Source of the DNA: Clostridia bacterium
GTDB lineage: Bacteria > Bacillota > Clostridia > Oscillospirales > Acutalibacteraceae
Reading direction: 5' to 3'
Length of the DNA: 56,528 nt
Assembly (NCBI GenBank): GCA_017625835.1
Contig: JAGAKF010000047.1
Location: forward strand, 1-56,528
In this document: positions 7-36,599 of the stretch, piece after piece
Numbering within the stretch: position 1 is the first letter of the stretch
Layout: each line of letters begins with the position of its first letter
Position numbers and translations under genes: made by a program
Notes under the pieces: generated by a model
What the model was told of the DNA's origin: nothing
The model's database searches: none
The model's input: only the letters and a program-made list of their open reading frames with translations

Positions 7-280
7 TGTCGGCGGCAGCAAGCCACCGCCCTACGCTGTTTATTCAACTCATCACGTAGGGGACGGGTTTCCCGTCCCGTCAGATACGGTGCAATTTTGC
101 GGGAGGCGAAACGCCTCCCCTACAGGCACTATCAAAGTCGGGTGTTATATTTTAGCGTCGCAGACCCTTAATGTTTGCAATGCAAACACATCATTCGCGT
201 AGCGAACATCATTCATCATTTCCGCACAGCGGATGCATCATTGCAAAGGCATCGCCTTTGCTCTACAAACCCGAATTTAT
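7..280. repeat. Modular palindromic intergenic repeat, copy 1
   Basis: No gene fits in 1-398. Positions 7-81 match 36352-36426 nearly base for base, and the end of the element (about 262-279, CTACAAACCCGAATTTA) matches about 36583-36599. Inside are hairpins GGGACGGG-TTT-CCCGTCCC (60-78) and GGGAGGCG-AAA-CGCCTCCC (101-119), both bordered by GTAGG/CCTAC sequence. Shorter palindromes separated by CATCAT follow: 173-187, 194-206, 221-233 and 243-261. No ORF or transposase is present, so this looks like a non-autonomous dispersed element. Its mechanism of spread is unknown. Confidence 0.75.
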
Positions 281-7740: not shown

Positions 7741-7780
7741 CCCCCATTTATCCCGACTATACAGCCGTGAAAAAATATAA

Positions 7781-7944
7781 GATAGCTCTCCGCAATAAGC
7801 GACAATAGGCGGGATCTTATTCCCGACTACCAGCACAGCCTTGGGCTTCGGCTGCCTTCGGCAACGATTCCTTTCACAACTGCCGTAAGCCTTGCCACGG
7901 CCTTGAATAACAGTTGCTACTGATAATGCGATGCGCCTCTATCG
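7781..7944 (-). ncRNA. Lysine riboswitch (L box)
   Basis: Read on the minus strand, this leader carries the L-box signatures in order: GATAGAGGCGC, AGTA, GTGAAAGG, GCCGAAG, GCTGG, and closing GGAGAGCTATC that pairs with the opening GATAG to form P1. The layout matches the Bacillus lysC riboswitch. It is followed by an intrinsic terminator and dapA. Lysine binding is expected to favour termination and shut off dapA-dapB-ddh-lysA. Confidence 0.97.
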
Positions 7945-7968
7945 TTAATTTTTTATTAACTTTCGGAT

Positions 7969-36351: not shown

Positions 36352-36599
36352 TGTCGGCGGCAACAAGCCACCGCCCTACGCTGTTTATTCAGTTTGGTAC
36401 GTAGGGGACGAGTTTCCCGTCCCGTCGGCTAATTCACTGTTTTCGGTTCGGGAGACCCGAACCCTACGAACCTTTGAGTTGAAACCGTGTCCGTAGGGGA
36501 ACATAATATGTTCCCGTAAAAATAACACATAATTGACGGGCAGATGATATCTGCCCCTACGACGTTGATTTAAAAGCTGTTCTACAGACCCGAATTTGA
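36352..36599. repeat. Modular palindromic intergenic repeat, copy 2
   Basis: This occupies most of the 36254-36762 gene-free gap. Its first 75 nt match 7-81 and its last ~18 nt match 262-279. The internal hairpins are GGTTCGGG-AGA-CCCGAACC (36445-36463), GGGAACAT-AAT-ATGTTCCC (36497-36515) and GGGCAGAT-GAT-ATCTGCCC (36538-36556), each beside CGTAG or CTACG. All three have 8-bp arms and 3-nt loops. The middle part has no counterpart in copy 1, so the elements are mosaics with shared ends. The remainder of the gap (36600-36762) shows only AT-rich sequence and the next gene's GGGGGG ribosome binding site. Confidence 0.75.

Follow-up and report, generated by a model that had tools for sequence, protein, structure and literature searches.

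The stretch of DNA analysed here, referred to as the window, comprises 56,528 nucleotides of a Clostridia bacterium genome (contig C34 of a 2.09-Mb MAG, 77% complete) and carries short hairpins that share their dimensions while differing in the letters of their stems. The locus raises the question of what keeps such palindromes self-complementary when their sequences vary. Our reading, to which we give a probability of roughly 0.78, is that the window hairpins are dispersed copies, some of them decayed, from a number of GTAG-type REP families of different RAYT lineages, read by geometry and foot, and that the composite repeat which contains them was multiplied as a unit.

Five palindromes reported in an earlier note were located at their positions, and their perfectly self-complementary stems were confirmed. 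The palindrome at 36497-36515 can pair either as 9 bp with a 1-nt loop or as 8 bp with a 3-nt loop (8/3), and DNA folding picks the latter. Three imperfect members had been overlooked, at 11-34 and 36356-36379 (core A, with G.T wobbles) and at 36401-36423. The tag common to the five palindromes is GTAG/CTAC. The longer CGTAG/CTACG, which had been ascribed to each of them, adjoins four, and the palindrome at 101-119 adjoins CTACA. The elements are listed below by coordinates and strand.

11-34, minus strand: REP core A, GTAG and a 9-bp stem with two G.T wobbles and a TT loop; unlike the hairpins in the genome's own RAYT gene at pair 6
56-78, plus strand: REP core B, GTAG-GGGACGGG-TTT-CCCGTCCC; core also inside the RAYT genes L120 and L162
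101-123, minus strand: REP core F, GTAG-GGGAGGCG-TTT-CGCCTCCC (stem pairing, DNA fold)
172-261, no strand: further hairpins joined by CATCAT, lacking the GTAG tag, within the first composite copy
265-278, no strand: right terminal inverted repeat ACAAACCCGAATTT of the first composite copy, inside which the window starts
36356-36379, minus strand: REP core A of the second composite copy
36401-36423, plus strand: REP core B, decayed, with one arm mutated (a copy of the 56-78 hairpin)
36445-36467, minus strand: REP core C, GTAG-GGTTCGGG-TCT-CCCGAACC (stem pairing, DNA fold)
36493-36515, plus strand: REP core D, GTAG-GGGAACAT-AAT-ATGTTCCC (stem pairing, DNA fold)
36538-36560, minus strand: REP core E, GTAG-GGGCAGAT-ATC-ATCTGCCC; core also in composites of the relative G005
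36584-36597, no strand: right terminal inverted repeat ACAGACCCGAATTT of the second composite copy

GTAG-tagged perfect stems (arm of at least 8, loop of 1-4) number five in the window; 200 dinucleotide shuffles average 0.02 of them and never have more than 1. Untagged 8/3 palindromes number 9 against a shuffle mean of 1.38 (maximum 4, 50 shuffles), so that the GTAG tag, and not the 8/3 geometry alone, makes up the bulk of the window signal. The heptamer CGTAGGG showed no enrichment by itself in the genome (105 occurrences, against 100 for the reversed-pattern control). On DNA folding, the five palindromes form 8-bp stems of -7.1 to -9.8 kcal/mol, values equalled by 0 or 1 of 200 shuffles. Folding is weaker (z of -1.5 to -2.6) for both core-A copies and for the B copy with the mutated arm. 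Two other features of the window were recorded in passing. The region at 172-261 is another kind of hairpin array, made of unrelated short palindromes (TGTTTGCA, TTCGC, TCCGC and GCAAAGGC stems) with CATCAT joints, and relatives have similar arrays. A lysine riboswitch lies at 7775-7949 on the minus strand (75 bits, Rfam).

REP elements are short mobile DNA palindromes that are presumed to be recognised by their transposase through shape. The window hairpins are REP elements. Each has the GT[AG]G foot immediately 5' of the palindrome, the elements occur in many copies, and both window clusters lie between ORFs, in line with the mainly intergenic placement of REPs as far as these two clusters go.

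The hairpins belong to a larger repeat. The second cluster, used as a query, has 28 matches, which we count as 24 composite places, the RAYT gene and one solitary hairpin. Many contigs end inside a composite, as the window does at its start; a single copy may thus have been counted as two places, one for each end, and the copy number is uncertain either way. The composite carries six core types (A-F) and terminal inverted repeats (TIRs), and it comes in two kinds, namely A-B-F followed by the CATCAT-joined hairpins, and A-B-C-D-E. In the A-B and C-D pairs the GTAG feet face each other at a repeated spacing, which is the alternating orientation of REPINs and BIMEs. The composite is also short, TIR-bordered and gene-free, as MITEs are, and its ends are sharp where visible (left AAATTCGGGTTTGT, right ACAAACCCGAATTT in other copies). 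No target-site duplication was found by eye in the few composite copies showing both ends. The different cores of the window are therefore different positions of one repeat, each of which recurs between copies, decay aside. Since the same cores recur across the genome and all five palindromes start with GG, to call the cores unrelated was too strong. Other composites in relatives combine core E with a D variant altered in both arms (GGGAGCATA-C-TATGCTCCC). At about position 889 of L045 (G000:C53), half of hairpin C directly joins the left terminal repeat (GGTTCGGG-TTTGTCGGG). The composite's terminal repeat may be derived from a REP half.

The genome encodes one Y1/HUH protein that we could find, the kind of transposase that the earlier note had proposed to look for. 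It is a RAYT of 167 aa with one gene copy. It matches NF047646 with an E value of 2e-19 and 69.9 bits, below the curated cut-off of 80, and reaches 21.5 of 23 bits against Y1_Tnp. Its motifs DHIH and YIEENP supply the HUH and the single catalytic Y of a Y---NP motif; at the positions of NH and WQ in subclass 2.4 it reads DHIH and FQ. With a single transposase copy here, it lacks the multicopy character of IS200/IS605 elements. The gene holds the A-type hairpin twice: a sense-strand GTAG-hairpin precedes the HUH codons, and its reverse complement follows them. Sixteen of the 18 genomes of the genus match this RAYT, several with more than one diverse RAYT. The A2 profile of RAYT relatives matches the solved E. 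coli TnpArep 4er8 (1.6e-12), and its alignment has the majority motifs PNHIH, WQRS and YIxxNP. All 53 A2 members match NF047646 at E of 0.001 or below; the comparison with the cut-off covers L134, which scores 64.4 of 80 bits.

The dispersal of core A is associated with the presence of its RAYT. Of the 18 genomes, the four that encode a complete A-type RAYT have 16, 15, 3 and 20 exact matches (two in each being in-gene, and 16 being the count for this genome), two others have 5 and 1, and the remaining twelve have none. Outside RAYT genes, core A occurs in 4/4 genomes with a complete A-type RAYT versus 2/14 without (p 0.005); G010 and G012, which have fragments of an A-type RAYT, contain 1 and 0 matches. 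G003, G005 and G009 contain solitary core-A hairpins whose flanks are unrelated, and one orthologous site is filled with a single hairpin in one of G003 and G005 and empty in the other, with a 39-nt gap. The dispersed A copies of this genome have T.G at pair 6, where the hairpins of its own RAYT gene have G-C. Core B has 19 exact matches here, 5 in G004 (two in its RAYT) and none in the other 16 genomes (p 0.11). A RAYT for cores B-F was not found in this 77% complete MAG, in which core A alone has its RAYT. The most likely assignment of the window REP families is to different RAYT (TnpAREP) lineages, and RAYTs other than the one found would have served B-F. The core GGGCGGAT has 8 matches in the 18 genomes, 4 in two RAYT genes and 4 single elsewhere, this genome included, and GGGCGATTC has 5, of which 3 are in RAYT genes and 2 lie within about 0.8 kb. 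Being near single copy, these two cores indicate that a RAYT does not always spread its REP.

The pair of hairpins inside the RAYT gene is usual in the clostridial relatives. Our main set of 110 RAYT loci consists of 30 from the genus and the best 80 of 537 named, and leans to this clade; an HUH-bearing ORF is present in 104 and both motifs in 97. In-gene hairpins were called at a score of at least 6 with an exact GTAG, site 1 being sought 85-190 nt before HUH and site 2 55-100 nt after, and related genes were counted separately in all RAYT statistics. Among the 97 ORFs of this set, which includes the best 80 of 537 named, site 1 was called in 77, site 2 in 85, both in 70 and neither in 5. At least one site is therefore present in 92/97, the in-frame REP of subclass 2.4. 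The two sites lie on opposite strands and bracket the HUH codons. Their placement is also constant within the same set (best 80 of 537 named included): site 1 starts 114-126 nt before HUH in 76/82, the GTAG-to-CTAC distance has a median of 193 nt (quartiles 185 and 197), GTAG keeps the same reading frame in 78/82 site-1 cases and CTAC does so in 77/89 site-2 cases. L345 and L346 carry an insertion of a different palindromic repeat at their in-gene site 1 (it reads VSGGHL...APTEAAAET).

A second sample, drawn evenly over the family, was positive in 24/80 genomes; 21 loci were read, of which 7 were dropped for having no complete frame by pattern. The 14 complete frames contain site 1 in 11, site 2 in 13 and both in 11, and the basal six letters are common to both sites in 9/11. 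The in-gene pair has its limit, as is seen in a phylum sample of 20 of 299 genomes: of the 18 loci with HUH read there, one has a matched pair (L258), L255, L256 and L257 have a single site, L265 and L266 have hairpins elsewhere after HUH, and none are counted in the rest. A RAYT with both in-gene hairpins (core GGGCGATCA) is carried by a contig of the viral collection, L305 (IMGVR_UViG_3300029305_005738), and two plasmid RAYTs, one of Chloroflexota and one of Bacteroidota, have GTAG hairpins outside the gene only. Of 83 clostridial loci, 13 have a hairpin of the same core outside the gene, at a distance of up to about 1.5 kb, and only L163 has one on both sides, so that the flanking REPs of a REPtron are not the arrangement here. 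In this clade a REP pair is typically carried inside the gene, one per strand flanking the HUH codons, with REPs around the gene as the exception.

The letters of the two in-gene sites tend to change together while their pairing is kept. Among the 73 ORFs with both hairpins (best 80 of 537 named included), arm agreement is 96.3% within a gene, with 49 identical, versus 55.5% between genes; in a set with 32 different site-1 cores it is 95.8% versus 54.7%, which 0 of 10,000 permutations reached. We compared the two sites with partners assigned by letters in 80/92 genes, the other 12 having no second-site partner within 6 letters, and obtained 664 same pairs, 16 double compensated changes, 5 one-sided changes that still pair and 17 broken pairs, part of them at the loop edge. 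A count of 12 double, 3 one-sided and 1 broken was rejected as biased, because the required hairpin score of at least 6 leaves out broken stems. Compared with their families, the 37 dispersed copies of this genome (after merging identical flanks, with differences counted on sequence variants and the RAYT locus L101 excluded) show 2 double changes, 6 that are one-sided and 12 that are broken, one of the doubles being the separate GGGCGGAT core. The contrast of 16 double versus 22 one-sided or broken in genes with 2 versus 18 in dispersed copies has a p of 0.016, for genes that are related and comparisons that differ in kind. Decay of one arm, which the earlier note had named as evidence against a kept structure, does hold for the dispersed copies and applies partly to the in-gene hairpins through the 17 broken pairs.

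Kept pairing is also seen in the scaffold of the best-defined class, GTAG-GG-NNN-G-R-CG-loop-CG-R-C-NNN-CC, in which pairs 3-5 are free. It gave 44 distinct sequences with 13 addresses, and the 132 cells of pairs 3-5 are Watson-Crick in 126, G.T in 2 and unpaired in 4 (128/132 pair). When position 7 was left free, it was purine-purine in 86/87 matches. This mismatch sits on the GTAG strand at both in-gene sites (25/25 and 26/26) despite their opposite gene strands. Hairpins of span 20 have G.T in 22/28 and 19/28, and a few neighbouring RAYTs have A-T at the mismatch position. The GTAG and the pairing survive synonymous recoding in 0.11% of draws, and 121/141 hairpins were never matched in 300. 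A strand-blind reading was set aside, as a scan of the sense strand with no GTAG anchor was weak (21 and 20 of 81 genes at 1/100 shuffles or fewer) because the site-2 wobbles lie on the other strand and are penalised.

A tree of 70 RAYTs, built from 108 columns without those of the hairpins, requires at least 25 changes of the 3-bp address at site 1 and at least 27 at site 2, against 10 changes of site-1 geometry; 11 of its 65 inner branches are starred and 27 open, and such poor resolution can inflate change counts. The address is the same at both sites in 62/70. For example, L155 and L177 are 78% identical outside the inserts and differ at both sites together. The fixed geometry reported for the window holds only inside a RAYT lineage and gives way among relatives to at least five geometries. 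With a RAYT encoded in the genome, the hairpin present twice in its gene and stems that vary in RAYT genes with pairing kept, the suggestion of a structure-recognising Y1/HUH enzyme of the REP/TnpA-REP kind is supported. We infer that the RAYT recognises the GTAG strand as folded single-stranded DNA, and that it would bind and cleave this strand. The enzyme would need the foot and the overall geometry (stem length, and a wobble, mismatch or loop near the tip) above the stem letters, so stems would be free to change if both arms change. Copying between gene and genome would then produce dispersed copies that decay, and the cores differ in the window probably because a TIR-bordered composite, later multiplied as a unit, brought together copies of families A-F in alternating orientation.

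The multiplication itself admits another account, in which the hairpins are MITE passengers: a transposase acting on the TIRs would amplify the composite, and the observed spread would owe nothing to the RAYT. The composite common to 24 places, its sharp ends and the failure to find a RAYT for B-F in this genome all agree with that account. We nevertheless consider it unlikely, since it leaves unexplained the GTAG foot, the solitary core-A hairpins, the filled and empty single-hairpin site and the in-gene pairs, and the few two-ended copies lack a visible target-site duplication. Another transposase may still move the multiplied composite unit within our REP reading. An RNA role, as terminators, stabilisers or autoregulators of the RAYT mRNA, would fit the intergenic position of the window clusters, and published REPs are thought to act in RNA according to the available part of one report (PMC3733652). 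The in-gene mismatches, however, track the GTAG strand at sites on opposite gene strands, so that one site is the complement in mRNA, and both orientations occur. Rfam at gathering thresholds gave only the lysine riboswitch in the window and nothing at the hairpins. An RNA function, one of the options raised earlier, is thus very improbable.

Two further accounts explain the matched letters by copying instead of recognition. If one arm were copied from the other at replication, hairpin-templated repair would maintain complementarity with neither selection nor a reading enzyme, and its one-step compensated doubles fit 16/38 of the in-gene site differences. Such repair should also erase mismatches, yet purine-purine is kept in 86/87 and G.T in 22/28 and 19/28, and it should mend the dispersed copies, where 18/20 changes are one-sided or broken. 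We regard it as improbable that this process alone is the cause. Copying through a hairpin intermediate, another earlier suggestion, is not needed, and the kept mismatches argue against it as the main force, but it may supply double changes that selection keeps. The in-gene match could also come from mutual conversion of the two copies with no recognition role. The sites are about 190 bp apart, palindromic and near-direct repeats, the 17 broken in-gene pairs fit, and genes with a change at a single site exist (L163, L174, L183, L184, L195, L210 and L211). We take conversion to be a real possibility but lean against it as a full explanation, as conversion alone does not account for the pairing of 128/132 cells at pairs 3-5 across 13 addresses or for the kept GTAG and geometry.

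Four RAYT relics from the genus and family samples are missing the segment that separates site 1 from site 2. In L117 and L341 a single hairpin remains at the junction, flanked by GTAG at one end and CTAC at the opposite end (a double foot). The breakpoints of L306 are in the loop of site 1 and just beyond site 2, and in L329 the hairpin is absent and the frame open. The remaining broken RAYTs in those samples show stops, frame shifts or contig-end positions. Since the two sites, being palindromic, also form near-direct repeats of each other, ordinary slippage is enough for the loss of the segment; RAYT-driven excision is a possibility. We may speculate that the clostridial RAYT gene is itself a REPIN, whose own substrate pair is a self-address (the shared, jointly switching pairs 3-5) and a built-in limiter, with cutting or slippage removing the HUH segment, though we hold this idea to be doubtful.

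The arrangement bears on a general question of REP biology, namely by what route a REP family can take on new letters and still keep its transposase. A transposase and its likely substrate in one gene make each sequenced gene a candidate enzyme/substrate pair, and the 82 site-1 hairpins (best 80 of 537 named included), which have 33 distinct cores by their first nine letters, can be compared with protein residues for a reading of the stem, if any. The genes also present a DNA-structure constraint within a protein-coding region, whose amino acids follow the hairpin (recoding keeps about 0.1%).

Several of these traits are already known, namely in-gene REPs (subclass 2.4), variable REP letters and orthologous RAYTs with different REPs. 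The available part of one study describes REPs as a GT[AG]G foot followed by a palindrome whose letters vary; it also reports that different REP classes flank orthologous RAYTs and that Stenotrophomonas REPs always have 8-9 perfectly paired bases beside the foot, with 22 and 13 classes in two groups (PMC3686654). The window elements are a further case of this published pattern of fixed geometry and variable self-complementary cores. Three TnpAREPs (E. coli, S. maltophilia and Marinomonas) recognise GTAG and the bulge or loop in vitro, to a varying degree and strand-specifically, and most stem letters are replaceable, as far as the accessible text describes (PMC8266576). The TnpAREPs of that work (Corneloup 2021) are of groups 2 and 3, whereas subclass 2.4 is group 4.

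The fixed opposite-strand pair at the HUH codons, the jointly switching shared address and the loss of the intervening segment were not found in the open-access literature (supplements aside; Figure S10 of Quentin 2018 may show part). The closest system is TnpAREP subclass 2.4 (Bertels group 4; Quentin 2018), for which the available portion of the paper gives in-frame REP insertions in the gene, 'generally' between HuH and Y, as well as flanking REPs, double-foot REPs, the motifs NH[IFV]H / WQ / YIxNNP and an extra 8-aa insertion (PMC6006769). The word Firmicutes is absent from its text (PMC6006769). The clostridial RAYTs likewise carry in-frame REPs within the gene. They differ from subclass 2.4, as described there, in a second hairpin before HUH on the opposite strand with mostly the same core, and in having a same-core hairpin outside the gene in just 13/83 loci. 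The related Leptolinea sp. plasmid RAYT (AP024711.1) has GTAG hairpins of 8-9 bp whose cores vary, as here, with six hairpins outside the gene and none inside, unlike the clostridial clade. Compared with the GTAG-type REPs, REPINs and BIMEs in the available accounts (Nunvar 2013, Di Nocera 2013), the window elements are alike in the foot and the palindrome of variable letters, and they differ in their Clostridia host, in the gathering of six cores in one TIR composite and in the REPs carried inside the RAYT gene.
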